A stretch of 45,210 nucleotides of DNA from Caldilineaceae bacterium (GTDB taxonomy: Bacteria > Chloroflexota > Anaerolineae > Caldilineales > Caldilineaceae), in assembly GCA_026989655.1 (NCBI GenBank), contig JALSIX010000127.1, forward strand, positions 1 through 45,210. The letters run 5' to 3'. The notes under the pieces are model-generated. The model ran no database searches and had not been told where the DNA came from. It was given only the letters and a program-made list of their open reading frames with translations. A program made the translations under genes and the position numbers. Positions within the stretch are counted from its first letter, which is position 1, and each line of letters starts with the position of its first letter. Of the stretch, positions 14,127-32,215 are shown piece after piece.

Positions 14127-14143
14127 GGTCGTCTTCGTCTTGG

Positions 14144-14155
14144 CGAACGCGTTCG
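14144..14155. repeat. 12-bp perfect palindrome in the RodZ-like gene leader
   Basis: CGAACGCGTTCG is self-complementary and lies about 18 bases upstream of the RodZ-like start codon, between the predicted promoter and the gene. It could be an operator site or chance in GC-rich DNA. Confidence 0.3.
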
Positions 14156-14244
14156 TCCGGATAGCCCCGGGCAAGGGAACGGACCTGGAACCGCCCCCCC
14201 GGGATGCCATGCGGCACCGTCCGGCCGCGGTGCTCTGCCGGACC

Positions 14245-14253
14245 ATTGTAGCA
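14245..14253 (-). promoter_or_regulatory. Extended -10 promoter of the RodZ-like gene
   Basis: On the minus strand TGC-TACAAT forms an extended -10 element. No good -35 box is present at the right distance, as expected for this promoter class. Transcription would start near 14238, giving a leader of about 110 bases. Confidence 0.5.
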
Positions 14254-14336
14254 CAGGTGAACCGCGGGGACGAAAGCGTCGACAGATCCCGGGGAGGCCC
14301 ACGTTCGAAAACGGATCGAAGCACAAAAGAAAGTGC

Positions 14337-14365
14337 TTGACACAGATTTACCGACCATATATAAT
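14337..14365 (+). promoter_or_regulatory. Rhamnose operon promoter (consensus sigma-70 type)
   Basis: TTGACA (14337-14342), a 17-base spacer and TATAAT (14360-14365) match the sigma-70 consensus at all twelve positions. Transcription would begin near 14372, about 90 bases before the DeoR-family gene. A promoter this strong needs repression, which fits the inverted repeat overlapping it. Confidence 0.88.
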
Positions 14366-14378
14366 GCAAATGTGCATT
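14363..14378. promoter_or_regulatory. Candidate operator: perfect inverted repeat over -10 and start site
   Basis: AATGCA (14363-14368) and TGCATT (14373-14378) are exact inverted copies separated by AATG. The repeat shares three bases with the -10 box and covers the predicted transcription start. A repressor bound here would block RNA polymerase. The first gene of the operon encodes a DeoR-family repressor, the obvious candidate binder. Confidence 0.6.
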
Positions 14379-14460
14379 CCCCCAGCACCTGGCCTGCTCC
14401 CGGTCCCCCGAACTGCGGGCCAGCGTTTGGTCCTCCCCGCCCCAGCGGATCGGTCCACCC

Positions 14461-15252
14461 ATGCGCACTCGGGAGCGCCAGGAGCGCATCGTCCGCTACA
14501 TCTTCGACAAGGGCCAGGCCTCGGTGGCGGAGCTGAGCCAGGTCTTCCGGGTCTCTCCGGTGACCATCCGCCACGACCTGAACCGGTTGGCCGAGCTGGG
14601 CCGGGTGGTCCGGGTCCACGGCGGGGCCCGGATCGCGGACGAACGCACCCGGCAGGAGCTGACCTTCGCCACCCGGCGCCGGTTGAACGCGGCTGCGAAG
14701 CAGCGCATCGGCGAGCTGGCCGCCACCCTGATCCGGCCGGTGGACTCCATCCTGCTGGATGCCAGCACCACGGCCGTGGCGGTGGCCCAGGCCATCAAGC
14801 GCAACCCCGATCTGCGGGACATCACCGTGGTGACCACTGGGATCTGGACGGCTCTGGAGCTCCTGGGCACCCGAGATGTCCACGTGGTGCTGACCGGCGG
14901 CTACGTGCGCAACACCACCGGCTCCATCACCGGGGTCGTGACCCAGCAGGTGCTGGAGAGCTTTCACATCCAGAAGGCCTTTCTGGGGGCGTGGGGCCTT
15001 TCCCTGGACGAGGGGCTCACGGACACCCACCTGGCCGAGGTGGAGCTGAAGCAGGCCGTCCTCGGCCGGGCCCAGGAGGTGGTGGCCGTCCTGGACGGCA
15101 CCAAGTTCGGCCGTCTGGGCCTGGCCTCCTTTGCCACCCTGGACCAGATCGACTGTCTGGTGACCGACGGCTCTGCGCCCGGGGAGATGGTGGAGGCCCT
15201 GCGGGCCCGGGGCATCCAGGTCCTGGTGGCGGATGGCGGAGGGGAACCATGA
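14461..15252 (+). CDS. DeoR-family transcriptional regulator, probable rhamnose repressor
   Basis: This 263-residue regulator has an N-terminal DeoR winged helix-turn-helix (about residues 5-55: [20 protein letters not shown], then [17 protein letters not shown] and VHGGARI). The C-terminal domain has the sugar-phosphate isomerase-like fold that senses phosphorylated sugars ([61 protein letters not shown]). It heads the rhamnose operon and is probably autoregulated through the inverted repeat at 14363-14378. By context the effector would be a rhamnose pathway intermediate such as rhamnulose 1-phosphate, but this is inference. There is no clear ribosome binding site. Its TGA overlaps the ATG of the next gene. 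DeoR-type rhamnose regulators are known from other bacteria (RhaR of Rhizobium). Confidence 0.9.
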
Positions 15253-16745
15253 CCGGAGGCAGCGGGCCGGTGCTGCAGGTGCGGGGCGTCCACAAGGCCT
15301 TCGGCGGCGTCCAGGCGCTCCAGGGGGTGGACCTGGACCTCTACGCCGGGGAGGTCCACGCCCTGCTGGGGGAGAACGGCGCGGGCAAGTCCACCCTCAT
15401 CCGGATCATCACCGGGGTCCACCCGCCCGACACCGGCACCATCCTCCTGGACGGCCGGCCGGTGGCCATCCGCAGTCCCCTGGAGGCCCAGGCCTACGGC
15501 ATTGCGGCCATCTACCAGGAACCCCTGGTCTTCCCGGACCTGAACGTGGCCGAGAACATCTTCCTCGCGCACCGGGGCCAGGGGCCGGTGGTGCGCTGGC
15601 GGGCTCTCTACCGCCAGGCCGAGGCCATCCTGGCCCAGCTCGGCGTCCACCTGGACGTGCGCAGCCCGGCCCGGGGGCTGACCCTGGCCGCGCAGCAGGC
15701 GGTGGAGATCGCGAAGGCCCTCTCCCTGCAGGTCCGGGTGCTGATCATGGACGAGCCCACGGCCTCCCTCTCGGCCCATGAGGTGGAGCAGCTCTTTCGG
15801 CTGGTGGGGCGGCTGCGGGAGCAGGGTGTCGCGATCCTCTTCATCAGCCACCGGATGGAGGAGGTCTTCCGCATCGCGGATCGGATCACCGTCCTGCGGG
15901 ACGGCCACCGGATCTCCTCCCGGCCCCGGGATCGGGTCACCCCGGAGCAGGCCATCCAGGAGATGGTGGGGCGGGAACTGGGGGAGTACTACGCCCGCGA
16001 ACCGACCCAACTGGGCGAGGTGCTCCTGGCCGTGGAGGGGCTGGGCCGAGAGGGTGCCTTCTCCGACATCCACTTCCAGGTCCGGGCCGGGGAGGTCCTG
16101 GGCCTGGCCGGCCTGGTGGGCTCCCGGCGCACGGACGTGGGGCTGGCCCTCTTCGGCATCGAGCCCGCGGACCGAGGGACGGTGCGTTTCCGGGGCCGTT
16201 CCGTGGCCATCCGATCGCCCCGTCAGGCCATGGAGCTGGGCATCGCCTACATGACCGAGGACCGACGACAGCTCGGCCTGATCATGTCCATGTCGGTGGC
16301 CGCGAACATCACCCTGCCCACCCTGCACCAGTATGTGAGCCGGCTGGGCCTCATCCGTCGGGAACAGGAGGTGGCCACCGCGGAGCGGTTCCGCCGGCGG
16401 TTGGCCATCCGCACCCCCGCGGTGTCCGAGGCGGTGGGACGGCTCTCGGGCGGGAACCAGCAGAAGGTCATGCTGAGCAAGTGGCTCAACGTCCAGCCCC
16501 GGCTCCTCATCCTGGACGAGCCCACCCGGGGTATCGACGTGGGGGCCAAGGCCGAGGTCCACCGCATCATCGGCGAGCTGGCCGCGGCCGGCCTGGGCAT
16601 CCTCCTCATCTCGTCGGAGATGCCCGAGGTCCTGGCCATGAGCGACCGGATCCTGGTCATGCGGGAAGGACGGCAGATGGGGATCTTCTCCCGGGAGGAG
16701 GCCACCCAGGAACGGATCCTGGCCGCGGCCATGGGCCAGGGCTAG
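15249..16745 (+). CDS. Sugar ABC transporter ATPase, double-domain (probable rhamnose importer)
   Basis: This 498-residue cytoplasmic protein carries two nucleotide-binding domains in tandem, the RbsA/MglA layout. The first has Walker [13 protein letters not shown], an [15 protein letters not shown] signature region and [11 protein letters not shown]. The second has a degenerate Walker A region ([12 protein letters not shown]), as is normal for this class, but an intact signature [15 protein letters not shown] and [16 protein letters not shown]. It powers the two permeases that follow. The start is the ATG at 15249, which overlaps the regulator's stop (ATGA). The frame is open far upstream, but only in the shadow of other genes. 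In Rhizobium the equivalent subunit of the rhamnose importer is RhaT. Confidence 0.93.
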
Positions 16746-16848
16746 CGGGGACACCGGGGGCGGTGTGGAGGCCGCGAGCGCCCCTCTCCCCTGGGCCTTC
16801 GATCTGCGCGAACGCGGCCCTTGCTCTTCCCCCACCTTTCGATCGCCT

Positions 16849-17862
16849 ATGACCTGGATACGCCGTCGATTCCGGCCCGAACAGATCCGAGAGCTGAGCC
16901 TGCTGGTCCTCATCCTGGCGGCCGTGCTCTTCTTCGGCACCCAGGTGGAGAACTACTACTCGCCCCGTACCTTCGTCCGCATCACCACCAGCGTGGCCAT
17001 CCTGGTGGTGATGGCCGTGGGGCAGACCCTGGTGGTGTTGACCCGGAACATCGACCTCTCGGTGGGCTCCATCGTGGGGTTCACGGCCTACTTCGTGGGC
17101 ACCATGTTGGCCCGGAACAACGAGATGTCCCCTGCGGCTGCGGTGCTCCTGGCGGTAGGGGTGGGGACGGCCATGGGTGCGGTGAACGGGGCCATCATCG
17201 CCTACGGTCGGGTGCCGGCCATCATCACCACCCTGGGCACCCTGGCCATCTACCGGACCCTGTTGGTGGAGTTCGCGAACGCCCAGACGGTCATCACGGC
17301 CTCGCTGCCCGGGTGGGTGATCGATCTGCCGCGGGTGAACCTGCTCTCGGTGGGGGGGCTGGATGTGCGGCTGATGGTGGGGGTGGCCCTTCTGGTGGTC
17401 TTCCTGTTCCAGCTCCTGCTCTCCTACCTCCGCTACGGCCGGCTGCTCTACGCCATCGGCTCCAATCCGGACGCGGCCCAGTTCGTGGGCCTCTCGGTGC
17501 AGCGGACGGTCTTCCTGGCCTACCTCCTGTGCGGCGCGCTGACGGGCCTGGCCGGGTTCATGTTCCTGGCCCGTTTCGGCAACATCACCGTGGTGGCGGG
17601 CCAGGGCATGGAGCTCCAGGTGGTGGCCGCGGTGGTGGTGGGGGGCGTGAACATCTTCGGCGGCTCGGGCAGCATGCTGGGCGCGCTGCTGGGCACCGTG
17701 CTCATCGCCACCCTGGAGCAGAGCCTGTTGCGCTGGGCCCAGATCAGCGAGTTCTGGCGAGACGCCATCCTGGGGTTGCTCATCCTGTTGGCCATCGCCG
17801 CGGACGCGGTGATCCTGGAGCGACTGCGGGCCCTGTGGGCCCGGGCCCACCAGGCCGGGTGA
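16849..17862 (+). CDS. Sugar ABC transporter permease 1 (RbsC/RhaP type)
   Basis: This membrane protein (337 residues from the chosen start) belongs to the RbsC-type permeases of monosaccharide importers. It contains [20 protein letters not shown], the conserved loop of this family, [20 protein letters not shown], and [19 protein letters not shown]. Many hydrophobic helices cover most of its length. The start is uncertain: the ATG at 16849 (MTWIRRRF) fits the family length, but no clear ribosome binding site precedes it, and an in-frame GTG at 16765 would add 28 residues. The gap of about 100 bases after the ATPase gene holds nothing recognisable. Confidence 0.92.
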
Positions 17863-17912
17863 GGGGCTGTGGGGCCCCAGGGGCCGAGCTCCGCGGGGGA
17901 GGGGAGGCCAGG

Positions 17913-18944
17913 ATGTCGAGAACCTCCAGAGCACTGCGACGCCCCATGGCGGTTGAGGGAATCATGCGCGACATCGGAAGCTATCTTCGCAGTTGGGAGG
18001 GCCTGCTGTTGGTCCTGGTGTTGGCGGTGATGGGCTTCAACGCGCTGCAGACGCCCTACTACCTGCGCCTCGCCAACCAGATCAACCTGTTCACCCTTTC
18101 CATCGAGAAGGTGATGGTGGCCCTGGTCATGGCCCTCATCATCATCAACGCGGAGATCGACCTCTCCGTGGCCTCCATCATGGGGCTGGCCGCCTGTGTC
18201 CTGGCCTATCTCCACAGCCAGGGGGTCTCCGTGGCCGTGGGGATCCTGGCCGGGCTGGCCGTGGGCCTGTTGGCCGGCGCGTTCAACGGCTTCTGGATCG
18301 CCTACGTGGGTCTGCCCTCCCTGGCCGTCACCCTGGCCGGGCTCATCGGCTACCGGGGCGCGGCCCGCATCCTCCTGGAGGACCGGTCCATCACCGATTT
18401 TCCGGAGTGGTTCAACCGCCTGGGACAGGAGGGCCTCGTCGGGCCGGTGCCCCTCTCCCTGCTTCTCTTCCTCCTGCTGGTGGGGCTCACAGTGATCGGG
18501 CTCCAGCGCTCGGCCTTCGGCCGCTACGTCTACGCGATCGGCAACAACCGGGACGCGGCCCGCTACTCCGGGGTGGACGTCCGGTGGATCAAGATGCAGC
18601 TCTTCATGGCCTCGGGGCTGGTCTCCGCGCTGGCCGGGCTCCTCCTGGCCGCCCGCCTGGGTGCGGTCCGGGGCAACACGGCCGAGGGCTTCGAGCTGGA
18701 CATCATCACCATGGTGCTCCTGGGCGGCGTGAGCATCTTCGGCGGCTCCGGCAGCATGGTGGGAGTGGTGTTGGCCATCCTCCTGGTCCTGAACCTGCGC
18801 AACGGCATGTCCCTGCTCAACATCACCGGCAACACCCAGACCGGTGTCATCGGCGTGCTGCTCATCCTCTCCGTGCTGGCGCCCAACGGGGTCCAGATGG
18901 TGCGGGAGCGGTGGCGCCGCCGGCCGACCACCCAGCAGGGATGA
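17913..18944 (+). CDS. Sugar ABC transporter permease 2 (RbsC/RhaQ type)
   Basis: This 343-residue permease pairs with the previous one; a heterodimeric channel is typical of the rhizobial-type rhamnose importer. It has [40 protein letters not shown] and [19 protein letters not shown], matching the equivalent positions of permease 1. The ATG at 17913 has GGGGAGG five bases away, so it was preferred over the later in-frame ATGs at MAVEG and MRDIG. It ends with a basic tail ([13 protein letters not shown]) in the cytoplasm. The binding-protein gene follows after about 170 bases in which no promoter was seen. Confidence 0.92.
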
Positions 18945-19113: not shown

Positions 19114-20229
19114 ATGAAGCGTCTGTGGACATCCCTCGCAGCCCTGCTGATCCTGGCCCTGGTGATCGGGGCCTGTGCCGCGCCCGCGCCCCCGGCCGCG
19201 GCGCCGGCCGAGGAACCGGCCCCCGCCGAGGAGGCCGAGCCGGCCCAGGAAGAGGCCCCGGCCGCGGAGGGGGCCCCGGCCGTGGACATGGTGTTGCTGC
19301 CCAAGTTCCTGGGCATCCTGGTCTTCGACCAGGCCTACCAGGGCGCGCAGGAGGCCCACCAGGAGATCGGCAACCCGGGCAAGCTGGAGTTCCTGGGCCC
19401 CACCCCGGAGAACAGCGTCCAGGGGCAGATCGAGATCGTCACCACCGCGGCCACCCAGGGCATGGACGCCATCATGATCTCCAACAACGCGGGGGATCAG
19501 ATCGTGCCCGCGGCCAAGGCGGCCAAGGAGGCCGGCATGACCGTGGTCACCTGGGATTCGCCCATCCCCTCCGCGGAGGGCGAGGACCTCTTCGTGGCCC
19601 AGGTGGACTTCGACGAGACGGGCAAGGTCATGGCCGAGATGGCCCTGAGCATCCTGGGCGAGGACGGCGGCAAGCTGGCCATCCTCTCCGCCTCCCCGGA
19701 CGCGGCCAACCAGAACGCCTGGAACGCGGCCTTCCAGGAGGTCCTGGAGACCGACCCCAAGTACGCGAACCTGGAGCTGGTGGACCTGGTCTACGGCAAC
19801 GACCAGTCCGAGGACAGCTACAACCAGGCCCTGGCCCTGGTGGACAAGTACCCGGATCTGGAGCTGATCATGGCCCCCACCACCGTGGGCATCGCGGCCG
19901 CGGCCAAGGCCATGCAGGACGAGGGGCTCTGCGACAAGGTCAAGGTGAGCGGCCTGGGCCTGCCCGCGGAGATGGTCAGCTACACCCTGAACGGCTGCGC
20001 GCCGGAGTTCGCCCTCTGGAGCTTCAAGGACCTGGGCTACCTGACCTACTACGTCACCTACCTGCTGGCCACAGGCCAGATCGAGGCCCAGGAGGGCGTG
20101 ACCTTCGAGGCCGGCCGCATGGGCTCCTACACCATCGAGAAGGACCCCACCCGGGACCGGGGCCTGCGGGTGCTCATGGGCCCCTTCACCATCTACACCG
20201 CGGAGAACGTGGAGGAAGCGGCGAAGTAG
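19114..20229 (+). CDS. Sugar-binding lipoprotein of the ABC importer (RhaS-like)
   Basis: This 371-residue protein has a classical lipoprotein signal ([21 protein letters not shown], lipid on the Cys of VIGAC), then a flexible Ala/Glu/Pro tether of about 40 residues. The mature part is a periplasmic-binding-protein type I fold: [49 protein letters not shown] and [19 protein letters not shown]. This pattern is typical of the rhamnose/AI-2 (RhaS/LsrB) branch of sugar-binding proteins. AAGGAGG stands seven bases before the ATG. Location between the permeases and the rhamnose enzymes supports rhamnose or a rhamnosyl sugar as substrate. Confidence 0.92.
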
Positions 20230-20382: not shown

Positions 20383-21450
20383 ATGCCCGATCCGTCCGGG
20401 TCCATCTCCATCATCCATGTCAGCCGGGACTTCTTCTTCCAGGTGGTCAAACCCATCCTGGAGGAACACTTCCCAGAGGTGATGGACCAGACCGCGTTCG
20501 GCGTCTTCGGCTACGGCTCCGACGCCCTGGGGCTGGACGACGAGCTCTCCCGGGACCACCACTGGGGCCTGCGCATCGACGCGCTCATGCCCGAGGAGCT
20601 CTTCCGGGAGAAGCGGGACGCCATCCTGGAGAAGGTCCAGGCCCATCTGCCCGACACCTACCGGGGATTCTCCCTCCGCAAGGGCCATGTGGCCGGGCCC
20701 GGCCTGGCCCCGGACAGCCTGCCGGGCTTCCTGCGCCGGACCATCGGCCTGGAGCGGCCACCCCGCACCCACCAGGAGTGGCTGAGCATCCCGGAGGAGG
20801 ACATCATCCACGTGATCAACGGCGAGGTCTGGCACGATCCCCGGGGCGAGTTCACCGCCATCCGGGAACACCTGCAGGGCTACTACCCAGAGCCGGTGCG
20901 CCTGCGCCGCATCGCCCACTGGTGCCGCTACTACTCGGGCATGGGCACCTACGCGCTGAAGCGGGCCCTCTTACGCCAGGACGAGCTCTACGCCACCACC
21001 CGCTTCAGCAACGCCATCCGCCTGGGCATCCAGTTGGCCTTTCTCCTGGACCGGCGCTACTTCCCCTACGACAAGTGGCTCATGGCCTTCTTCCGCCGCC
21101 TGCCCCGCATGTACGACCGGCTGGCCCCCCTGGTGGAGGAGGCCCTGCCCCTGTCCACCCCCTGGGAGCGGAAGCTGGAGCTCCTGGACCGCATGTCTGA
21201 CATCCTGGACCAGACCCTGGTGGAGGACGGCATCATCGATCCCCACCCCCGCTTCCAAGGCTCGCCCACCTCGGGCTACCGGCTGCTGGAGCACGCCTAC
21301 GCGGTGATCCTGCGCAAGCTGCCAGAGGCGCTCCGCACGGTGGTACCCGTCTGGGATCAGATCTACCTGGAACGCTTCCACAGCGGCTACGTGGCCGAAC
21401 TGGATCTGGAGGAGTGGGACCGGCTCCTGAACCTGACACCGGTGGCGTGA
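20383..21450 (+). CDS. DUF4037 nucleotidyltransferase-like protein
   Basis: This 355-residue cytoplasmic protein resembles DUF4037 proteins. The key region, residues 40-62, reads GVFGYGSDALGLDDELSRDH followed by HWG. That is a nucleotidyltransferase-like GS...D signature of the form found in that family. The middle holds GFLRRTIG and IPEEDIIHVINGEVWHDPRG. The C-terminal half is helical (YYSGMGTYALKRALLRQDEL, FSNAIRLGIQLAFLLDRRYF, DKWLMAFFRRLP). TAGGAGG precedes the ATG. No reaction is established for this family, and its presence inside a rhamnose operon is unexplained. It could modify a small molecule or be a toxin/antitoxin-like nucleotidyltransferase; the sequence does not decide. Confidence 0.75.
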   Translation: MPDPSGSISIIHVSRDFFFQVVKPILEEHFPEVMDQTAFGVFGYGSDALGLDDELSRDHHWGLRIDALMPEELFREKRDAILEKVQAHLPDTYRGFSLRKGHVAGPGLAPDSLPGFLRRTIGLERPPRTHQEWLSIPEEDIIHVINGEVWHDPRGEFTAIREHLQGYYPEPVRLRRIAHWCRYYSGMGTYALKRALLRQDELYATTRFSNAIRLGIQLAFLLDRRYFPYDKWLMAFFRRLPRMYDRLAPLVEEALPLSTPWERKLELLDRMSDILDQTLVEDGIIDPHPRFQGSPTSGYRLLEHAYAVILRKLPEALRTVVPVWDQIYLERFHSGYVAELDLEEWDRLLNLTPVA

Positions 21451-21594
21451 GCGGAGGAAGGGGGAGCGGAGGACCACGGCATCGACGATGATCCGGGCGA
21501 CAGGGTGAATGGCCGGACAGGGAGAGCCAAGGACAGGCGAGCCCCTCTCCCCGGCCCCAGGCCCGTGGCCCGGTCGCCCTGAAAGGAGCCCCCG

Positions 21595-22608
21595 TTGAAC
21601 GCCAGAGAGCGGGTACGCGCGACCCTGGAACGACGGCCCACGGACCGCACCCCCGTGGACTGCTGGCTCTACGAACGGCGCTTCCTGGATCGGCTGGAGG
21701 CGGAGTACGGCCCCCGGGAGCAGTTCCTGGACGAGTTCGGCATCGATATCTTCGTGGGCTTCGTGCCCTACCCCAACCAGCTGGGCCGTCACGTGGACGT
21801 GACCGAGCTGGCCGCGCTGCCCCTGGAAGATCCCCGCGACCCCAAGTGGCTCACCTTCACCGCCTGGGACGAGATCTTCGGTGGCGTCAACGTGGCCCAG
21901 GCCCTGGAACAGCAGGGGCACAAACGCTGGATCATCGCCCACCTGTGGGGCATCGTGGAGGGGACCAGCACCTTCCTGGGCATCGAGAACTGCTGGCTCA
22001 ACCTGGGCCTGAACCCGGCGCTCATGGCCGCCTGGTTCGACCGCTACGCGGACTGGCTCTGCGGCCTGGTGGAGAGCGTGGCCGACGCCGGAGTGGACAT
22101 GGTCACCCTCTCCGACGACTGGGGGAGCAACCGCACCATGCTCTTCTCCCCTCGCATGTGGCGGCGCCTGATCGCGCCCTACACCCGCCGGGTGGTGCAA
22201 CACGCCCGCTCCCTGGGCCTCTACGTGAACCTGCACAGCGACGGCTACATCCTGGACGTGCTGCCCGACATCATCGAGACCGGCTACCACAGCATGCACC
22301 CGGTCCAGGAGAGCGCGGGCATGGATCCCCGCACCATCAAGGCCGAGTACGGGGACCGGATCGTGATCTACGGCTCCTTGGATGTGGTGGATGGCCTCCT
22401 GGCCCACGACGGCGAAGCCCTGGACCGCTACATCACCGAGCGCTTCCAGATCTACGCGCCCGGGGGCGGCTTCATCTTCAACACCGGCCACTTCGTCCAA
22501 CCGGATGTCCCGCCGTCCCGGCTGGTCCAGGCCTACCGCCGGGTCCGGGAGCTGGCCGCCCTGGACTGGAACGCCAGCCCCTCCCCATCGGAGATGGACC
22601 GGCCATGA
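21595..22608 (+). CDS. URO-D superfamily protein (uroporphyrinogen decarboxylase/methyltransferase-like)
   Basis: This 337-residue protein has the URO-D/MtaA barrel pattern: an N-terminal NARERVRATLERRPTDRTPV, DAGVDMVTLSDDWGSNRTML in the centre, SPRMWRRLIAPYTRRVVQHA, and LPDIIETGYHSMHPVQ near residues 223-238. The RQAGRY-like region of true HemE is absent. The HxC zinc motif of corrinoid methyltransferases (H-x-C-G) is replaced by H214-S-D-G217, so neither classical activity is likely. Relatives of this kind are common in sugar-utilisation loci of Chloroflexota and Planctomycetota with no known function. The start is TTG with AAGGAG eight bases before it. The stop overlaps the next start (ATGA), tying its translation to the rhamnosidase. 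Confidence 0.85.
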   Translation: MNARERVRATLERRPTDRTPVDCWLYERRFLDRLEAEYGPREQFLDEFGIDIFVGFVPYPNQLGRHVDVTELAALPLEDPRDPKWLTFTAWDEIFGGVNVAQALEQQGHKRWIIAHLWGIVEGTSTFLGIENCWLNLGLNPALMAAWFDRYADWLCGLVESVADAGVDMVTLSDDWGSNRTMLFSPRMWRRLIAPYTRRVVQHARSLGLYVNLHSDGYILDVLPDIIETGYHSMHPVQESAGMDPRTIKAEYGDRIVIYGSLDVVDGLLAHDGEALDRYITERFQIYAPGGGFIFNTGHFVQPDVPPSRLVQAYRRVRELAALDWNASPSPSEMDRP

Positions 22609-24758
22609 GCGCGCGGCCCATGCCTTTCCAGCAGGGGTTCTGGATCGGCTCGGACCACCCTTTCGACCTCCACGAGGCCTACCTCTGCTTCCGCTCCCCA
22701 TCCTGCTGGACCCTGCCGGATCGCCCTTCTTCGGCCCGGCTCTGGCTCACCGCGGACAGCCGCTATCGGCTCTGGATCAACGGCCAGCCCGTGGGACGGG
22801 GGCCCGCCCGCTCCTGGCCCCACGCCCAACAGGTGGATGTCCTGGAGGTCCAGCACCTGCTCCGGCCCGGCGAGAACACCCTGGCCGTCCAGGTCTACCA
22901 GCCCGGATACTCCCACTTCGCCTACGTGCACCGGGGAACGGCCGGCCTGCTGGCCGCGCTGGAGGTCGACGGCCAGGTGGTCCTGGCCACGGGGCCCACC
23001 TGGCGGGTGCGACGGGACCCCTCCTTTCGGGCCCTGGTGCCGCGGATCTCCATCTACGGCAGCGGGGTGGAGGACCGGGACCTGGCCCTGGCCGAGGGCT
23101 GGACCGAGCCCTGCTTCGACGACCGAAACTGGTCCCCAGCCCGGATCGTGGCCCCGGCCGAGGGGCCCCTCTGGTCTGGCCTCCGACCCCGACAGACCCC
23201 TCTCCTGGAGGAGCGAACCCTGCCGGTGGCGGGCCCGGACAGCCCCTTTCGCCGGGTGGAATGTCGTCGGGGTCCCGCCCCCGCGGAGAGGGCCGACCCC
23301 CACCAGGCGCTCCGCAGGCTGTGGCACACCGCCCGCCCCACCGTCCTGCCCGATGCCGTGGACGGCTGGTATCGGGTCCGTCTATCTCCTGGGGAAGGTG
23401 TGGCCTGGCTCGTGGACCTGGGCCGGACCCACACCTGCCAGGCATGGGCCCAGGTCCAAGGAGCTCGAGGCGGCGAGCAGCTCCTGGTGAGCTATGCGGA
23501 CAAGGTGGTGGAGGGCCAGGTGGTCCTCTCGGATCCCCGGACCTACTGCCGGATGCGGGTGACGGATCGTTTCCGGCTGCGGCCCGGCGCCCAGGTGGCC
23601 CAGGGCTTCGGCATGCGGGGAGGGCGGTTCCTGATCTTCGCCCTGGTGGGGGCCGAGCCGGCCGAGCTGGCCGTACGGCTCCTGGTGACCACAGCCACCT
23701 ACCCCCTGGCGGAAACCCGAACCCTGCACACCGGCGATCCCCTGTTGGACGGCGTGGTCTCCCTGTGCGAGAACACGGTCCGGGCCTGCCTCCAGGACAC
23801 CCTGGTGGACTGTGTGTGGCGAGAGGCCGGCCAGTGGCTCGGGGACGCCCTGCCCCAGGCCCTGGCCCTGGCCGCCATGAGCGACGACCTGCGCCCCCTG
23901 CAGGTGGCCATCCAGATGGCCGCGGAGGGGGCCTACGCCGACGGCATCCTGCCCTCGGTGCTGCCCAGCGAGGCCCACGCCTACACGGTGCTGGACTACA
24001 ACTTCACCTGGGTGGAGCTCCTGCACCTCCACCATCGACTCCGCCGCGATGGGGCCTTCCTGGCCCAGATGTGGCCCGTCCTGGTCCGGATGCTGGCCCG
24101 TTTCCGGGCGGATCGGGGCCCGGATGGCCTGCTGCGCAGCCAGCCCGGCCGACGCCTCTTCCTGGACTGGGCCCCCCTCTCCCGCAACGAGCCCAGCGCG
24201 GTCTACAACCTCCGCTATCTCCGGGCCCTGCAGCTGGCCGCCCAGGAGTGGGAGGGAGTGGATCCCGAGTGGGGCGCTTCCGTCGCGGGGCAGCGCCAGG
24301 CCTGGCAGGAGGAGGCCCAGTCCCTGGCCCAGGCCATCCGGGCGACTTTCTGGGAAGGGGGCGTCTGGTGGGACGACCGGGAACGCACCACGTCTTCCCA
24401 GTTGGCCGCGGCCCTGGCCCTGCTCACCGGCCTGGTGCGCCCGGAGGAAGCGGACGCGGTCCTGGACGCGCTGGCGGCCCGCTCCCTGGACCCACGGGAC
24501 GAGCACCGGCCGGGGGAGATGGTCCTGGCCAGCCCCTTCATGCACCACTACGTGTTGGAGGCCCTGTACCAGGCCGACCGCCACCAGGAGGTCCGGGCCA
24601 TCATCCGAGAACGATGGGGGCGTTGGGTCCAGGCCGGCTATCCCACGGCCTGGGAGAACTGGAATGTGGATTTCCCCGACGGTTCCCAGTGCCACGCCTT
24701 CGCCGCGCACCCCCGATACCACCTCGCGCGGCTGGCCGCGGCCGAACCCAGCCCGTAA
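22605..24758 (+). CDS. Alpha-L-rhamnosidase, GH78-like, cytoplasmic
   Basis: This 717-residue enzyme would release L-rhamnose from rhamnosides. The N-terminal part is beta-rich (LWLTADSRYRLWINGQPVGR and LLRPGENTLAVQVYQPGYSH). An (alpha/alpha)6-barrel follows. The family active-site motif appears as DCVWREAGQWLGD, with D402 and E407 corresponding to the DCPQRE..GW.GD of GH78; the PQ positions are changed to VW. The second conserved region is PTAWENWNVDFPDGSQCHAF, with the likely general base E684. No signal peptide is present, so the enzyme works inside the cell on imported rhamnosyl compounds. The start overlaps the preceding stop (ATGA). It precedes rhaA by 12 bases. Confidence 0.88.
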   Translation: MSARPMPFQQGFWIGSDHPFDLHEAYLCFRSPSCWTLPDRPSSARLWLTADSRYRLWINGQPVGRGPARSWPHAQQVDVLEVQHLLRPGENTLAVQVYQPGYSHFAYVHRGTAGLLAALEVDGQVVLATGPTWRVRRDPSFRALVPRISIYGSGVEDRDLALAEGWTEPCFDDRNWSPARIVAPAEGPLWSGLRPRQTPLLEERTLPVAGPDSPFRRVECRRGPAPAERADPHQALRRLWHTARPTVLPDAVDGWYRVRLSPGEGVAWLVDLGRTHTCQAWAQVQGARGGEQLLVSYADKVVEGQVVLSDPRTYCRMRVTDRFRLRPGAQVAQGFGMRGGRFLIFALVGAEPAELAVRLLVTTATYPLAETRTLHTGDPLLDGVVSLCENTVRACLQDTLVDCVWREAGQWLGDALPQALALAAMSDDLRPLQVAIQMAAEGAYADGILPSVLPSEAHAYTVLDYNFTWVELLHLHHRLRRDGAFLAQMWPVLVRMLARFRADRGPDGLLRSQPGRRLFLDWAPLSRNEPSAVYNLRYLRALQLAAQEWEGVDPEWGASVAGQRQAWQEEAQSLAQAIRATFWEGGVWWDDRERTTSSQLAAALALLTGLVRPEEADAVLDALAARSLDPRDEHRPGEMVLASPFMHHYVLEALYQADRHQEVRAIIRERWGRWVQAGYPTAWENWNVDFPDGSQCHAFAAHPRYHLARLAAAEPSP

Positions 24759-24770
24759 CAGGAGACATCC

Positions 24771-26048
24771 ATGGCTGAACGACCGACCACCACCCAGATC
24801 GAACAGGCCTACGCCCTGGCCCGGGAGCGCTACGCGGCCCTGGGTGTGGACACGGACGCGGCCCTGGAGCGGCTGCGCCGGATCGCCATCAGCCTCCACT
24901 GCTGGCAGGGGGACGACGTCCTGGGCTTCGAGGACCCGGAACGAGGCCTCAGCGGGGGCATCCTGGCTACCGGAAACTACCCGGGTAGGGCCCGGACCCC
25001 GGACGAGCTCCGCCAGGACCTGGAGATGGTCTACCGGCTGTTGCCGGGCCGACATCGGCTGAACCTCCACGCCATCTACCTGGAGAGCGGAGGTCGCAGG
25101 GTGGAGCGGAACGAGATCGGCCCGGAGCACTTCCAGAGCTGGGTGGACTGGGCCCAGGAACAGGGCTTGGGCCTGGACTTCAACCCCACCTGCTTCTCTC
25201 ACCCCCTGGCCGACGACGGCTTCACCCTGGCCCACCCGGATGAGGGCGTCCGCCGTTTCTGGATCGAGCACTGCCGGGCCTGTCGCCGCATCGGCGAGCA
25301 CTTCGGCCGGGAGCTGGGCACCCCCTGCATCACGAACATCTGGATCCCCGACGGCTTCAAGGACACCCCCGCGGACCGCCGGGCGCCCCGGGAACGGCTG
25401 CGGGACTCCCTGGACCGGATATTCGCCGAGCCCGTGGACGTGCGCTACAATCGAGACGCGGTGGAGTCCAAGCTCTTCGGCATCGGTTCCGAGAGCTACG
25501 TGGTGGGCTCCCACGAGTTCTACCTGGGCTACGTGGCCACCCGCCACAAGATCCTCTGCCTGGACATGGGCCATTTCCACCCCACCGAACAGATCGCGGA
25601 CAAGGTCAGCGCGGTGATGCTCTACGTGGACGAGCTCCTCCTCCACGTGAGCCGGGGGGTCCGCTGGGACAGCGACCACGTGGTCACCCTGGCCGACGAG
25701 GTCCTGGCCCTCATGCAGGAGATCGTCCGGGGTGGCTACCTGGACCGGGTCCACATCGGGCTGGACTTCTTCGACGCGAGCATCCAGCGGGTGGCCGCCT
25801 GGGTCATCGGCAGCCGGAACGTGCTCAAGGCCCTGCTGGTGGCCCTGTTGGAGCCCGTGGAGACCCTGCAGGCCCTGGAACAGGCCGGCGATCTCACCGG
25901 CCGCCTGGCCCTGATGGAGGAGATGAAGGCCATGCCCTGGCAGGCCGTCTGGGACTACCACTGCCTGCAACAGGACGTGCCCGTGGGCATGGCCTGGCTG
26001 GACCAGGTCCGGGCCTACGAGAAGGACGTGCTGGCCGAGCGGGGGTAG
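24771..26048 (+). CDS. rhaA: L-rhamnose isomerase
   Basis: This 425-residue metal-dependent enzyme converts L-rhamnose to L-rhamnulose, the first step of the pathway. It matches the E. coli RhaA type closely from memory: [127 protein letters not shown] and [20 protein letters not shown]. The Glu, Asp and His residues of the metal site lie in the [16 protein letters not shown] and [10 protein letters not shown] segments. The length is normal. AGGAGA precedes the ATG. It is followed after 25 bases by the kinase. Confidence 0.97.
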
Positions 26049-26073: not shown

Positions 26074-27540
26074 ATGGCCGCTTCGACCACGAGCCGTACC
26101 GTGCTGGCCATCGACCTGGGCGCGGAGTCGGGCCGGGTCATGGCCGTGGCCTGGGATGGCGAACACCTGGCAGTGGAGGAACTCCACCGCTTCCCGAACG
26201 GACCGGTGGAGGTGCGGGGTACCCTCTTCTGGGACTTCCTGTACCTCTGGCAGGAGATCCAGCGGGGCATCGAGAAGGGCCGAGCCCTCGGGCCGGCCAG
26301 CCTGGGCGTGGACACCTGGGGGGTGGACTTCGCCCTGCTGGACGCCACCGGCCACCTGGTGGGCAACCCGGTCCACTACCGGGACGCCCGCACCCAGGGG
26401 GTCATGGAGCGGGTGCTGGAACGGATCCCCCGGGAGACGATCTTCGCCCAGACCGGGGTCCAGTTCCTCCCCATCAACACCCTCTACCAGCTCATGAGCC
26501 TGGTGGAGGCCGACGCCCCCCCTCTGGCCATCGCGGAGACCTTTCTCATGGCCCCCGACCTGATCCACGGCTGGCTCACCGGGGCCCGGGTCTGCGAGTT
26601 CACCAACGCCACCACCACCCAGCTCTTCAACCCCCAACGGGGCACCTGGGCCGTGGAGCTCATGGAGTCCCTGGGGATCCCCACCCGGATCTTCCCCGAG
26701 ATCGTCCCCCCGGGCACCCGCCTGGGAGAGTACCAGGGCATCCCGGTCATCGCGCCGGCCACCCACGACACGGCCAGCGCGGTGGCCGCGGTGCCGGCCC
26801 GGGGGCCGGGCTTCGCCTACATCAGCTCGGGGACGTGGAGCCTGGCGGGGCTGGAGGTGTCCGAGCCCATCCTGGGCCCCGAGGCCTTGGCCGTCAACGC
26901 GACCAACGAGGGGGGCGTGGAAGGCACCTACCGTTTCCTGCGCAACCTCATGGGCCTGTGGATCGTGCAGCAATGCCGACGGGCCTGGGCTGAGGAGGGA
27001 TACAGCTACACCTACGCAGAGCTCACGGAGATGGCCGCGGCCGCGCCGCCCTTCCGCTGCGTCATCGACCCGGACGATGGCCGCTTCCTCCCGCCGGGCG
27101 ACCATCCCCGGCTGATCCAGGAGATGGCCTGGGAGACCGGCCAGCCCGTCCCCGAGACCCCAGGCCAGGTGATCCGCTGCGTCCTGGAGAGCCTGGCCCT
27201 GAGCTACCGGGAGACCCTGACCCGGCTGGCCGAGGTGGCGGACCAGCCCATCCACACGGTCCACATCGTGGGGGGCGGCTCCCGCAACGAGCTGCTCAAC
27301 CAGATGACCGCGGACGCCACGGGCTGGCCCGTGGTGGCCGGCCCGGCCGAGGCCACGGTCATCGGCAACGCCCTGGTCCAGCTCAAGGCCCTGGGCGAAC
27401 TGAGCTCCGTTGCCGAGGGACGCGGCCGGGTGGCCACCCTCCCCGAGCTGCGTACCTACGAACCCCGGCCCTCGTCTGCCTGGGAGGAGCTGTACGCGCG
27501 GTACAAGGCCCTGCCCACCCGCACACCGCCCTCCACCTAG
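26074..27540 (+). CDS. rhaB: Rhamnulokinase
   Basis: This 488-residue FGGY-family sugar kinase phosphorylates L-rhamnulose to L-rhamnulose 1-phosphate with ATP. The first phosphate loop is VLAIDLGAESGRVMAVAWDG, and the rhamnulokinase-type sequences SLGVDTWGVDFALLDATGHL, HYRDARTQGVME, TGVQFLPINTLYQLMSL and FTNATTTQLFNPQRG follow. ISSGTWSLAGLE, NATNEGGVEGTYRFLRN and HIVGGGSRNELLNQMTADAT complete the C-terminal ATP domain. GGAGGAA precedes the ATG. The neighbouring isomerase and aldolase leave little doubt about the substrate. Confidence 0.96.
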   Translation: MAASTTSRTVLAIDLGAESGRVMAVAWDGEHLAVEELHRFPNGPVEVRGTLFWDFLYLWQEIQRGIEKGRALGPASLGVDTWGVDFALLDATGHLVGNPVHYRDARTQGVMERVLERIPRETIFAQTGVQFLPINTLYQLMSLVEADAPPLAIAETFLMAPDLIHGWLTGARVCEFTNATTTQLFNPQRGTWAVELMESLGIPTRIFPEIVPPGTRLGEYQGIPVIAPATHDTASAVAAVPARGPGFAYISSGTWSLAGLEVSEPILGPEALAVNATNEGGVEGTYRFLRNLMGLWIVQQCRRAWAEEGYSYTYAELTEMAAAAPPFRCVIDPDDGRFLPPGDHPRLIQEMAWETGQPVPETPGQVIRCVLESLALSYRETLTRLAEVADQPIHTVHIVGGGSRNELLNQMTADATGWPVVAGPAEATVIGNALVQLKALGELSSVAEGRGRVATLPELRTYEPRPSSAWEELYARYKALPTRTPPST

Positions 27541-27622
27541 GCAGGCCGCCCCGCGACGGCCCTGGAAGGCCTGGGATGGGCCATCTTCACACGGCTTCGG
27601 CCAGGAACGAGGAGGAGGCACC

Positions 27623-29815
27623 ATGCACTATCGACCGGAAGAGTTCCGCCATGTCCGCTACCTGTGGGACGACGACGCGGTGCAGGGCATGGATCCCGTG
27701 GACCGGCTGGTCTACCGCTCCAACCTGCTGGGCGCGGACCTGCGCATCACCAACACCGGTGGCGGGAACACCTCGTCCAAGGTGACCATGCCCGATCCCC
27801 TCACCGGCGCGCCCATGGAGGTCCTGTGGGTGAAGGGCTCCGGCGGCGATCTGCGGACCTCGAACCGGACCCACTTCGCCTCCCTCTCCATGGAACGGCT
27901 GCGGCAGCTCCGGGAGCTCTACCGGGCAGACGCCGGCCGGGGCCCCAAGACCCCGGTGGAGGACCGGATGGTCTCCCTCTACCCCCACGCGGTGTACAAC
28001 CTGAACCCCCGGGCCAGCTCCATCGACACGCCCCTCCACGCCTTCATCCCCTACCGCCACGTGGATCACACCCACCCCCACGCGATCATCGCCCTGGCCG
28101 CGGCGGAGAACGGCCAGGCCCTGACCCAGGCCATCTTCGGCGACGCGGTGGGCTGGATCCCCTGGCAGCGTCCGGGCTTCGACCTGGGGCTCCGGCTGGA
28201 GGCCTTCTGCCGGGAACATCCCCAGGCCATCGGCGCGGTGTTGGGGGGCCATGGGCTCATCAACTGGGCCGACGACGACAAGGAGTGCTATGAACGCACC
28301 CTGGCCATCATCGAGACCGCAGCCCGCTACATCCAGGCCCAAGCCCAGGGCCAGGATCCCTTCGGCGGCCCCCGCTACCCGGCCCTGGACCCGGAGGCCC
28401 GACGGCGGATCCTGGTGGCCCTGCTCCCCTGGCTCCGAGGACGGGTGAGCCAGGAACACCGCTTCGTGGCCACCGTGGACACGGACGAGGCGGTGCTGAC
28501 CTTTGTCAACAGCCAGGACGCGCCCCGCCTGGCCGAGCTGGGGACCTCCTGTCCGGATCACTTCCTGCGCACGAAGATCAAGCCCCTCTACGTGGACTGG
28601 AACCCGGTCCAGGAGGACCTGGCCACCCTCCAGAGCCGGCTGCAGGAAGGGTTGGAGCGCTACCGCCAGGACTACCGGGCCTACTACCAACGATATCGTC
28701 GCCCCGACTCGCCCCCCATGCGGGATCCCAACCCCACGGTGATCCTGGTGCCTGGGGTGGGCCTCATCGCCTGGGGCAAGAACAAGAGCGAGAGCCGGGT
28801 CACCGCGGAGTTCTACAAGGCCGCGGTGGAGGTGATGCGGGGCGCCGAGGCCCTGGACCGCTACACCGCCCTGCCCCTCCAGGAGGCCTTCGACATCGAG
28901 TACTGGGCCCTGGAGGAGGCCAAGCTGCGCCGCATGCCCCCGGAGAAGGGGTTGGCCCGCCAGATCGCGGTGGTCATCGGCGGCGGGAGCGGCATCGGCC
29001 GGGCCGTGGCCCAGCGGATGATCCAGGAGGACGCCCACGTGGTGGTGGCAGACCTGGACGCGGAGGCCGCCCAGGAGACAGCCGAGGGGCTGGTGGCCCA
29101 GGCCGGCATGGGCATCGGCCTGGCCGGCACCGGCATCTCCCGCTGTGGCCCGGCCATCTCCCTGGAGGTGGACATCACCGACCGGACCTCGGTGCGCCGC
29201 CTGTTGGAGACCACCGTCCTGGCCTACGGGGGGGTGGACCATATCGTGGTCACCGCAGGGCTGTTCGTCCCCCCGGACGCGACCGGCCACATCCCCGATC
29301 CAAGCTGGGCAGACACCTTTGCCGTGAACGTCACCGGCCCCTACCTGGTCGCGGATGAGGCCCGGCCCATCTGGGCAGCCCAGGAGCTGCCCGGCAGCCT
29401 GGTGATCGCGACCAGCGTCAACGGGGTGGTGCCCAAGCGGGGCTCGGAGGCCTACGACGCGAGCAAGGCCGCGGCCAACCACCTGATCCGCGAGCTGGCC
29501 CTGGCCCTGGCCCCCCTCGTCCGGGTCAACGGCCTGGCGCCCGCGGCCGTGGTCCAGGGCAGCGCCATGTTCCCCCGGGAGCGGATCATCGCCTCCCTGC
29601 TCAAGTACGGCCTGGACTTCGACGAGAGCGAGGACACGGAGACCCTGCGGGAACGGCTGGCCGCCTTCTATGCCCGACGGACCCTGCTGGGCGTCCCTGT
29701 CTTGCCCGAGGACCAGGCCGAGGTCGTCTACCTCCTCTGCACCCGGGCCTTCGGCAAGACCACCGGCCAGATCTTCACCGTGGACGGCGGCCTGCCCGAG
29801 GCCTTCCTCCGCTGA
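27623..29815 (+). CDS. rhaEW: Bifunctional rhamnulose-1-phosphate aldolase / L-lactaldehyde dehydrogenase
   Basis: This 730-residue fusion carries out the last two dedicated steps. The N-terminal half (about 1-430) is a class II aldolase: TNTGGGNTSSKV, LWVKGSGGDLRT, the metal-binding DHTHPHAIIAL (H149, H151) and GGHGLINW (H210). It splits rhamnulose 1-phosphate into dihydroxyacetone phosphate and L-lactaldehyde. The C-terminal half (about 445-730) is a short-chain dehydrogenase with the Rossmann motif VVIGGGSGIGRAVAQ, a catalytic YDASK (Y611, K615) and a C-terminal TVDGGLPEAF; it would oxidise lactaldehyde to lactate. Such RhaEW fusions are described from Chloroflexus and Bacillus. GAGGAGG precedes the ATG. 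It is the last gene of the operon. Confidence 0.95.
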   Translation: MHYRPEEFRHVRYLWDDDAVQGMDPVDRLVYRSNLLGADLRITNTGGGNTSSKVTMPDPLTGAPMEVLWVKGSGGDLRTSNRTHFASLSMERLRQLRELYRADAGRGPKTPVEDRMVSLYPHAVYNLNPRASSIDTPLHAFIPYRHVDHTHPHAIIALAAAENGQALTQAIFGDAVGWIPWQRPGFDLGLRLEAFCREHPQAIGAVLGGHGLINWADDDKECYERTLAIIETAARYIQAQAQGQDPFGGPRYPALDPEARRRILVALLPWLRGRVSQEHRFVATVDTDEAVLTFVNSQDAPRLAELGTSCPDHFLRTKIKPLYVDWNPVQEDLATLQSRLQEGLERYRQDYRAYYQRYRRPDSPPMRDPNPTVILVPGVGLIAWGKNKSESRVTAEFYKAAVEVMRGAEALDRYTALPLQEAFDIEYWALEEAKLRRMPPEKGLARQIAVVIGGGSGIGRAVAQRMIQEDAHVVVADLDAEAAQETAEGLVAQAGMGIGLAGTGISRCGPAISLEVDITDRTSVRRLLETTVLAYGGVDHIVVTAGLFVPPDATGHIPDPSWADTFAVNVTGPYLVADEARPIWAAQELPGSLVIATSVNGVVPKRGSEAYDASKAAANHLIRELALALAPLVRVNGLAPAAVVQGSAMFPRERIIASLLKYGLDFDESEDTETLRERLAAFYARRTLLGVPVLPEDQAEVVYLLCTRAFGKTTGQIFTVDGGLPEAFLR

Positions 29816-29838: not shown

Positions 29839-29858
29839 GGCCGGGCTACGGCCCGGCC
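29839..29858 (+). terminator. Probable rhamnose operon terminator hairpin with UACG loop
   Basis: GGCCGGGC (29839-29846) and GCCCGGCC (29851-29858) form a perfect 8-bp GC stem closed over TACG, which in RNA is a very stable C(UACG)G tetraloop. It begins 23 bases after the rhaEW stop. No run of T follows, so it may slow rather than release polymerase or protect the 3' end. It overlaps the last codons of the converging peptidase gene. Confidence 0.4.
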
Positions 29859-32215
29859 TCCTCCACCGTGAGGGTGAAGGTGCCCTGGCCCAGATCTCCC
29901 AGGCTGCCGATCTCGATGGTCAACGTCAGATCCCGGGGGATCTCCAGTTCCAGAAAACCGGCCCCCTGGGTCTCGGGCTCCAGGCTGTCGCTCTGGGCCA
30001 CCAGCCGATCGCCCAGATAGAGGTAGACCACCGGCTCCAGGCCCTGGCCCCGGGCGCGGATGTCCACCACCGTGTCGCCCTCCAGGTCGATCCGATAGCG
30101 GACCCGAAGGCCCGGCTGCAGCTCCCCCTCCACCGTGTCGCCCAGGGTCAGCTCCCCGGCCTCCTCCACCTGGGGCCGGGTGACCTCGTCCAGCCAGGCC
30201 ACGGCCGCGTCCAGGACCGGATCCCCCTCCGCGAGCAAGGTCTCCTCGGTGACCGGAACCCGGACCGTGGGCGCCACCCCTTTGCCCTCGATGTGGATCT
30301 CCCCGTTCGGGTCCACGGCCCGGCCTGCGGTGAACTGGAAGAACTCCTCGTCGGGCATCTTGAGGAGCTTGGTGCTGCCTCCCAGGCCCGCGGTGGGGTA
30401 CATGCCCACGATCGCGGCCCGTTCCTCGATGGTCATGTCGTAGGTGAAGAACTCACAGGCGCTGTTGCAGTTGGGGCCGATGAGCACCGCGATCCGGCCC
30501 CGGTAGCGCAGATCCTCCGGAGGCAGGTAGAAACGGTCCGCGTACACGGGATCGAAGTAGAACTGGCCCCGCCCCTTGTCGTAGTAGCCGGTGTTGCCCA
30601 GCACGTGGGGTTCGTCGAAGAAGTACGCGGCCATCTGGTCGGCCAGGAAGCCCCGGCCGCCGCTGTTCTGGCGCATGTCAATGACCAGCCCAGCCACGCC
30701 CTCTTCGTTCAGAGCACGGATCATCCGTTCCCAGAGCTGGACCGTGAGCAGGGTGTTGTCCGCGAAGCTGTAGATCTTCACATAGCCGTACTCCGTGCCC
30801 TCCAGTTGCCGGAACTCCACCGGCAGCTCGAACCCGGTCAGCCCCACGTTGAAGGAGGTGGCCAGAAAGCTCTCCCGTTCGGGGATCACCTCCAGCACCT
30901 CGGTGACCTCCTGGCCCTCATCGTCCACGAAGGTCACCGCGACCGAGGCCGTGCCCCGGGGAAAGCGGGTGGCGTAGCGGGCCTTCTGCAGGCGCTCCAC
31001 GTGAGGGGTGCTGAAAGGCGCAGACCAGGCCACCGCGTTCTCGATGACCTCCTGGATGGGCACGTCGTCCAGGGCCCGGATCTCCGTGCCCGGCCGGATC
31101 CCGGCCCGGTCGGCCGGGCTGTCCTCCAGCACGAAGACCGCGATGGCCCGACCGTCGTCCAGCTCCTGGATGGCCAGCCCCACACCGCCCCAGGTCGCGT
31201 CCAGGAACTCCTCCACCAAGAAGGGCGGGCTCAGGTGGCCATCCGGGATGGACCACACGAAGTCCCGGAAGGCCTTGAGATAGGTCTGCCGGGCCCGTTC
31301 CACCTCTCCCCGGGCCTTCAGGTTGTCGGCCGCCTGGAAGCGGGGGCGGAACGCCCGGCGCTTGCGCTCCCAGTCGATCCCCTTGTACTCGGTGAACGCG
31401 TACTCCTTGCTCAACAGGTCGATGAGCGCGTCGAAGGCCTCCGCGTAGCCCAGCGCCGAGAAGTCCACCAAGGCCGCGCTCTCCGGCTCGATCAGGTCGA
31501 TGACCGGGTAGCGGGAGCGGTCGAAGGTGAAGGGCGACGTGTCCATGTCCACCACGGTGTACCCCTGGGGCAGGGTCACGATGGGTTCGTCGCCGGTGAA
31601 GAGCAGGCCGTCTGGGCCGAAGTCGCTGGGGAAGCCCTGGCGGTCGTCCGGCGCGTAGACGATGAACTTGCCGCCGATGATCTCCCGCTCCTTGTCTGCC
31701 TCCTCGCTGACCCGGGTGGACGCGTAGGCCGTGGACCATCCCCCGCCGAAGAGATCCCGCTCTTCCAGGAAGGGATCGCCGAAGGTGTTGTTCCAATAGG
31801 CCACCGCGAAGATCTGGACGCCTCGGTCCTCCTGGTCGTCGTTGTCCACGTCCCGGTAGGCGCCCTTGGGCTCGATGGGCAGGGCCAGGGAATAGGTGAA
31901 GGGCGAGGTGTAGAAGTCCGAGGTGATCTGGCCGATGGTCTGGGACTCTACGGGCATGATGTAGCGCTCGTTTCGGTCCACGAAACCGGCCTGGTCCTCC
32001 AGGATGATCAGGGGTTCGGCCACCCCCAGGGTGAACCGGGGGTTCGTGTAGGTCACCTGGCCGGTGATGCTCACCGGGCCGCCCTCGTCGTTGACGATGG
32101 GGGCCGGCGGTGGATCCTCCTGGGCCCACACCGGCCCTGGCCATGCCAAAGCGAACAGGATCCCCACCAGGCACAGGACGGCCGTGTGGGCCGTGTAGAG
32201 AGGTCTGTTGCGCAT
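29846..32215 (-). CDS. Secreted S41 (C-terminal processing) peptidase with PDZ domain
   Basis: This 789-residue protein has an N-terminal signal peptide (RNRPLYTAHTAVLCLVGILF, cleavage probably after VWA). A large N-terminal region of unknown fold follows. A PDZ-like domain then shows GGVGLAIQELDDGRAIAVFV, DSPADRAGIRPGTEIRALDD. The S41 catalytic domain has YGYVKIYSF, GLVIDMRQNSGGRGFLADQM, and NCNSACEFF with the probable nucleophile S585. The C-terminal 100 residues (GDTVEGELQPGLRVRYRIDL and onward) look like a bacterial pre-peptidase (PPC-like) beta-sandwich. AAGGAG sits eight bases before the ATG, so this start was preferred over one eight codons upstream. It is the third gene of a leftward group and converges on the rhamnose operon. 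Confidence 0.88.
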   Translation of the reverse strand: MRNRPLYTAHTAVLCLVGILFALAWPGPVWAQEDPPPAPIVNDEGGPVSITGQVTYTNPRFTLGVAEPLIILEDQAGFVDRNERYIMPVESQTIGQITSDFYTSPFTYSLALPIEPKGAYRDVDNDDQEDRGVQIFAVAYWNNTFGDPFLEERDLFGGGWSTAYASTRVSEEADKEREIIGGKFIVYAPDDRQGFPSDFGPDGLLFTGDEPIVTLPQGYTVVDMDTSPFTFDRSRYPVIDLIEPESAALVDFSALGYAEAFDALIDLLSKEYAFTEYKGIDWERKRRAFRPRFQAADNLKARGEVERARQTYLKAFRDFVWSIPDGHLSPPFLVEEFLDATWGGVGLAIQELDDGRAIAVFVLEDSPADRAGIRPGTEIRALDDVPIQEVIENAVAWSAPFSTPHVERLQKARYATRFPRGTASVAVTFVDDEGQEVTEVLEVIPERESFLATSFNVGLTGFELPVEFRQLEGTEYGYVKIYSFADNTLLTVQLWERMIRALNEEGVAGLVIDMRQNSGGRGFLADQMAAYFFDEPHVLGNTGYYDKGRGQFYFDPVYADRFYLPPEDLRYRGRIAVLIGPNCNSACEFFTYDMTIEERAAIVGMYPTAGLGGSTKLLKMPDEEFFQFTAGRAVDPNGEIHIEGKGVAPTVRVPVTEETLLAEGDPVLDAAVAWLDEVTRPQVEEAGELTLGDTVEGELQPGLRVRYRIDLEGDTVVDIRARGQGLEPVVYLYLGDRLVAQSDSLEPETQGAGFLELEIPRDLTLTIEIGSLGDLGQGTFTLTVEEAGP

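Follow-up and report, generated by a model that had tools for sequence, protein, structure and literature searches.

A UroD-superfamily protein with a putative His-Asp-His site in an L-rhamnose operon of a Caldilineaceae bacterium, and its possible part in methylated-rhamnose metabolism

The window, i.e., the whole stretch of DNA analysed here (45,210 nucleotides; contig JALSIX010000127.1 of the Caldilineaceae bacterium assembly GCA_026989655.1), contains an L-rhamnose operon with genes for a DeoR regulator, a sugar ABC transporter, a DUF4037 protein, a UroD-like protein, a rhamnosidase, the isomerase RhaA, a kinase, and an aldolase-dehydrogenase fusion. The genes are arranged as follows.

14461..15252, plus strand: DeoR-family regulator (Pfam).
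15255..16745 (start approximate), plus strand: sugar ABC transporter ATPase (Pfam ABC_tran, two stretches).
16765..17862 (start approximate), plus strand: sugar ABC transporter permease (Pfam PF02653).
17880..18944 (start approximate), plus strand: second sugar ABC transporter permease (Pfam PF02653).
19117..20229 (start approximate), plus strand: periplasmic sugar-binding protein (Pfam PF13407).
20383..21450, plus strand: DUF4037 protein of 355 aa with a predicted kanamycin-nucleotidyltransferase/HEPN fold (Pfam PF13228, 100.7 bits).
21595..22608, plus strand: UroD-superfamily protein of 337 aa with a TTG start; His214-Asp216-His299 at the positions of the MtaA His-Cys-Cys zinc site.
22605..24758, plus strand: GH78-type alpha-L-rhamnosidase of 717 aa (Pfam PF17389 and PF08531).
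24771..26048, plus strand: L-rhamnose isomerase RhaA (NCBIfam PRK01076, 717.9 bits, exceeding the cut-off of 572).
26074..27540, plus strand: rhamnulokinase-like FGGY kinase (TIGR02627, 500.8 bits, slightly below the cut-off of 527.95).
27590..29815, plus strand: class II aldolase and short-chain dehydrogenase fusion (Pfam PF00596 and adh_short; start chosen within the open reading frame 27410-29815).

Residues D402, E407, D414, and E684 of the rhamnosidase, which we take to be the GH78 catalytic residues, are invariant in 18 sequences, and the terminal fusion is built like a rhamnulose-1-P aldolase/dehydrogenase. On the minus strand, an S41/PDZ tricorn-like peptidase gene (29846-32239) lies directly past the operon end, and a gene with a RodZ-like look by eye (12873-14489; helix-turn-helix and a Pro/Thr-rich linker) adjoins the DeoR gene.

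The UroD-like reading frame is real. It is open from the TTG at 21595 to the TGA ending at 22608 and encodes 337 aa; AGGAG stands at 21584-21588, six bases 5' of the TTG, and the orthologue alignment starts at the same residue as the TTG-started protein. An earlier note, made from the sequence, had described (i) an ATGA overlap with the rhamnosidase gene, (ii) H214-S-D-G in place of the HxCG of corrinoid methyltransferases, (iii) the absence of the HemE N-terminal signature, and (iv) a well-kept barrel core. All four observations were confirmed: the rhamnosidase ATG (22605) and the UroD-like TGA (22606-22608) share the ATGA; the translation reads VNLHSDGYI (H214-S215-D216-G217) where HxCG would stand; and the remaining two are taken up below.

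By profile, the protein belongs to the UroD superfamily: the Pfam URO-D model (PF01208) matches residues 135-319 at 71.7 bits, where the cut-off is 23.9. It falls far short of the HemE model (TIGR01464, 32.4 of the 302.95 bits needed), the MtaA/CmuA model (TIGR01463, 31.6 of 235.4), and PRK06252 (43.8 of 244); its top NCBIfam matches are methylcobalamin:CoM methyltransferase models, every one under its cut-off. The MRQAGRY stretch of HemE aligns to LYERRF, placing Leu25 at the first Arg and Arg29 at the second, a position that is Gln in the family consensus, such that the second HemE Arg is not kept across the family. The HemE substrate Asp, which together with the Arg residues of the N-terminal RQAGRY marks the HemE signature, stands opposite a gap. 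The same genome encodes a separate HemE on another contig (C38, 440.5 bits).

The predicted structure (pLDDT 95.3, pTM 0.92) is that of a UroD-type TIM barrel. It matches 23 HemE and MtaA entries with Z 26.7-29.2 over 293-302 residues, the best being HemE entries (Z up to 29.2), with MtaA at Z 26.9 and the next, MetE-type, entry at Z 18.9. Run on the model, this comparison bears out the well-kept barrel core (Z 29 to HemE, 27 to MtaA). When the protein is aligned by profile with MtaA, the His and Cys of LHICG correspond to H214 and D216, and the Cys of PGCGI to H299. The His is thus kept and both Cys are replaced at the site itself; the HxCG Cys was not lost along with the site. As judged from this alignment, the MtaA metal site thus appears reshaped to His-Asp-His rather than erased, and His214-Asp216-His299 would form a putative metal-binding site. 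His299 is also common to the GHG of HemE.

All four residues of HSDG (214-217) are invariant in 33 near-full-length family sequences, the window's own among them, and the motif is therefore not a chance feature; D174, D175, K249, D263, and H299 are likewise invariant in this set, in which 95 positions are invariant or deviate in one sequence only. The pocket residues D174, D175, H214, K249, D263, and H299 are also kept in most of 16 distant, non-orthologous homologues, hand-picked from the sequences at hand (27 such ORFs present) and not exhaustive, of which 10 have HxDG and six HxCG, with His at position 299 in 15. A reading of HxDG as a rare loss was accordingly rejected. The statement that the protein lacks both decarboxylase and methyltransferase signatures is thus literally true, but the condition is a common one with which methyl transfer remains compatible.

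According to PMC10418091, S-methyltransferases of the UroD superfamily have His-Cys-Cys, whereas O-methyltransferases carry Asp/Glu or non-ligands in place of one or both Cys, and HxDG is therefore no argument against methyl transfer. CdmB, a substrate methyltransferase (MTI) of the superfamily, shows no zinc according to PMC13222342, such that a metal site is not required for an MTI role; this counts against the demethylase reading given below. H214/D216/H299 fits the pattern of UroD-type O-demethylase MTI proteins (His plus a carboxylate, or no Cys), a pattern that is unspecific, HxDG being common.

A scan of GTDB genome contigs yielded orthologues at 37 loci (52-89% identity); as such a scan picks up close relatives only, the homologue sets are lower bounds. 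By record title, Chloroflexota make up most of the loci; three are proteobacterial (L010, L013, L018), a single one comes from Marinimicrobia (L032), and L012 bears only the title 'bacterium'. Among 150 genomes of relatives, 13 carry an orthologue, with best matches of at least 66% identity; the next homologues reach at most 41% over part of the chain, among the matches listed. On this gap in identity, the protein and its orthologues form a discrete family, distinct within the UroD superfamily. URO-D-like genes as such are plentiful in the relatives, with as many as 82 candidates at first look in a single genome (14 of these scored), and a plasmid search gave four records with a match, the best at 30.5% identity. 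The orthologue of Kouleothrix aurantiaca (L036:1711-2705) lies in two frames, possibly through a draft error.

From the gene overlap, the earlier note had proposed a role linked to the rhamnosidase, perhaps in the processing of a modified sugar or aglycone. The link to L-rhamnose holds, with at least one rhamnose gene at 24 of the 37 loci (rhaM at 11, RhaA at five, RhaB at six, the aldolase-dehydrogenase at four) and a binding protein of at least 50% identity to the window's at 16. The rhamnosidase, however, is not the steadiest partner: it lies downstream of the orthologue in 18 of 33 eligible loci, whereas 28 of the 34 loci with sufficient sequence have a DUF4037 gene upstream, and in at least eight loci the two genes share a four-base overlap. 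Processing of a modified sugar by the UroD-like protein is plausible, nothing having come to light for or against an aglycone, and the recurrent sugar context affords a short list of candidate substrates. DUF4037 is missing at L007, L021, L022, L025, L031, and L032. At L021, L022, and L025, the orthologue adjoins a LacI regulator, a MalEFG-type transporter, an AXE1 esterase, and a GH2 enzyme, together with a six-hairpin rhamnosidase-type hydrolase unlike the window's rhamnosidase.

The DUF4037 neighbour is predicted to be kanamycin-nucleotidyltransferase/HEPN-like by fold. Its model (pLDDT 88.6) best matches kanamycin nucleotidyltransferase 1kny (Z 12.1; 238 residues aligned at rmsd 5.9), and its top structural rows are mostly aminoglycoside and lincosamide nucleotidyltransferases; in PMC3710099, DUF4037 is listed together with C-termini of aminoglycoside nucleotidyltransferases. 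The nucleotidyltransferase-like motif of the window's protein (20383-21450) reads GS...DD..SRDHHWG, i.e., D-H-H. A search of the relatives matched the motif pattern at seven of 20 DUF4037 loci, with D-H-H in five and D-H-D in two, and the idea that D-H-H was a loss special to this operon was rejected, as other DUF4037 proteins also have it.

Corrinoid proteins are encoded at three of the 37 orthologue loci: two at L014, one at L032, and one at L034, the last a B12-binding/UroD fusion. The other 34, several of them on short contigs, have no visible corrinoid gene, and none was found in the window operon. The most informative of the three is the Marinimicrobia draft contig L032, where a corrinoid protein and an HTCG-type UroD protein come after an orthologue of 52% identity, the activase RACo being encoded on the opposite strand, all within 9.3 kb; this region (L032:1000-9142) also holds a phosphodiesterase and a 387-aa HTCG protein for which NCBIfam and Pfam gave no match, its HTCG motif having been spotted by eye. 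RACo occurs in one of the 41 genomes of the L032 order, on a single draft contig, in the sole genome there with an orthologue; 17 of the other 40 have distant UroD homologues only. At L014 (L014:5622-19804, Anaerolineales), an apparent operon comprises five UroD-like genes, one of them the orthologue, along with two corrinoid proteins, DUF4037, a rhamnosidase, and rhaM; the corrinoid, rhaM, rhamnosidase, and DUF4037 genes share one orientation. In control regions round distant UroD genes, some cut by contig ends, a corrinoid protein was present in four of 20 (one of eight for the HSDG type), and corrinoid proximity is thus no commoner in this family than in the class as a whole. In three genomes (G005, G027, G034), the contig of the orthologue also carries a corrinoid protein 13-16 kb away. 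In G005 and G034, it belongs to an aminotransferase/corrinoid/RsmI-like neighbourhood (RsmI-like gene recognised by eye) that sits on another contig in the window genome, and this proximity was therefore not counted as linkage.

At the level of whole genomes, 31 of the 33 distinct ones with an orthologue also have RACo (duplicates merged by identical coordinates, the genome of L010 left out), the exceptions being that of K. aurantiaca (G168), with its orthologue in two frames, and a 1.3-Mb bin (G161). Among the 150 relatives, 13/13 carriers have RACo vs 106/137 non-carriers (one-sided P 0.043), and within the taxonomic family 11/11 vs 26/35 (P 0.064). As proof of a corrinoid role this co-occurrence is weak, with RACo in 119 of the 150. 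PF02607 matches, found in all 32 carrier genomes searched, included frames long enough for MetH and were thus not used as a test. The window genome itself encodes, all on other contigs, a single corrinoid protein (C61), one RACo (C93), and one methyl-THF:corrinoid methyltransferase, which at 346.6 bits passes its cut-off of 259. MtgC is the best-scoring model for the corrinoid protein (224 of 370 bits), and the genome has two MttB-family enzymes, such that this machinery may well serve other customers.

We tentatively prefer the reading in which the UroD-like protein is the MTI of a corrinoid O-demethylase for O-methyl-L-rhamnose or a rhamnoside, since fold, site, and corrinoid-bearing loci agree. 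Building on the family membership, the residues, the operon, and the partner genes present in the genome, the scheme would run as follows. The neighbouring ABC transporter would import O-methylated L-rhamnose or a rhamnoside, from which the rhamnosidase would free the sugar, and the UroD barrel would position its ether oxygen on a metal ligated by His214-Asp216-His299. The methyl group would pass to a shared corrinoid protein encoded in another part of the genome, kept reduced by the activase, and onward via the methyl-THF:corrinoid methyltransferase. The demethylated rhamnose would then be available to RhaA, the kinase, and the aldolase-dehydrogenase in turn. The chief doubts are that a corrinoid gene is missing at most loci and that DUF4037, closely kept, has no place in the scheme.

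Both doubts feed a close rival, itself a real possibility: a corrinoid-independent UroD-fold metalloenzyme that works with DUF4037 on a rhamnoside or a rhamnose-derived intermediate, through isomerisation, elimination, or retro-aldol-type chemistry at His-Asp-His. This would account for DUF4037 as the most constant partner, for the gene overlaps, and for the 34 loci without corrinoid genes; it is also in keeping with a DUF4037 fold that matches nucleotidyltransferases acting on aminoglycoside sugar hydroxyls and with sugar epimerases at Foldseek ranks 31 and 40 for the UroD-like model. However, the rival leaves the corrinoid genes and activase of L032, and the corrinoid genes of L014 and L034, unexplained, and the loci that lack DUF4037 tell against it. 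That no enzyme of the UroD fold is known to us to carry out chemistry of this kind also counts against it.

A role on the acceptor side, as a methyltransferase (MTII) through which a carrier or thiol receives methyl groups from the corrinoid protein, is decidedly unlikely. The sub-cut-off methylcobalamin:CoM methyltransferase matches and the fold likeness to MtaA would suit it; both Cys of the His-Cys-Cys that PMC10418091 describes for S-methyltransferases are nevertheless replaced here, the genome has its separate methyl-THF:corrinoid methyltransferase, and a sugar locus better suits a substrate-specific component. We consider it highly improbable that the barrel binds a sugar as a non-catalytic sensor or scaffold: no activity is known for the family, and a DeoR regulator and transporter share the operon, but the pocket residues are conserved, in the family and in most of its distant homologues, as expected of an enzyme. 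A HemE-type decarboxylase or second HemE is scarcely credible and was rejected, the top Z of 29.2 to HemE structures and the shared His299 being set against the low model score, Leu25 for the signature Arg, the unkept Arg29, the gap opposite the HemE Asp, and the genome's own HemE.

For the family as a whole, a further proposal, which we hold to be less likely than not, is that of a dedicated methylated-rhamnose enzyme with a His-Asp-His site, tied to a kanamycin-nucleotidyltransferase-like protein, i.e., an ether-cleaving demethylase, corrinoid-dependent or corrinoid-free, that would feed shared C1 machinery in Chloroflexota. Methylated sugars occur in capsules, lipopolysaccharides, and plant walls, and if the protein does demethylate rhamnose, it would link them to corrinoid C1 metabolism, provide a first function for an HxDG subfamily, and give context to its DUF4037 partner. 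A literature search, with most subscription papers outside it, found no earlier case of an ether-cleaving demethylase for a sugar and no URO-D-like gene tied to rhamnose.

The closest known systems compare as follows. Kanamycin nucleotidyltransferase-like proteins concern the DUF4037 neighbour only, whose model aligns best with the 1kny, ANT(4'), and LinB entries, and not the UroD-like protein. HemE (PDB 4wsh, 1uro) shares the fold (Z 27.5-29.2) and the His299 equivalent; the UroD-like protein differs in lacking the HemE Arg/Asp signature and in its 32.4 of 302.95 bits. MtaA/CmuA (TIGR01463, PDB 4ay7/4ay8) has the same barrel (Z 26.9), with the HxCG His kept as H214, whereas the protein described here has Asp216 and His299 for both Cys ligands and sits in a rhamnose operon. 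The corrinoid O-demethylases and dehalogenases MtvB, OdmB, VdmB, MtoB, and CdmB, likened here by description, belong to the same superfamily according to PMC13222342 and PMC10418091. They act there on methoxylated aromatics and chloromethane, not sugars, and the window's gene differs further in having no adjoining corrinoid gene; the likeness lies in the carboxylate or non-ligand that replaces Cys in the O-methyltransferases described there, and in the layout of MTI, corrinoid protein, and activase at L032.
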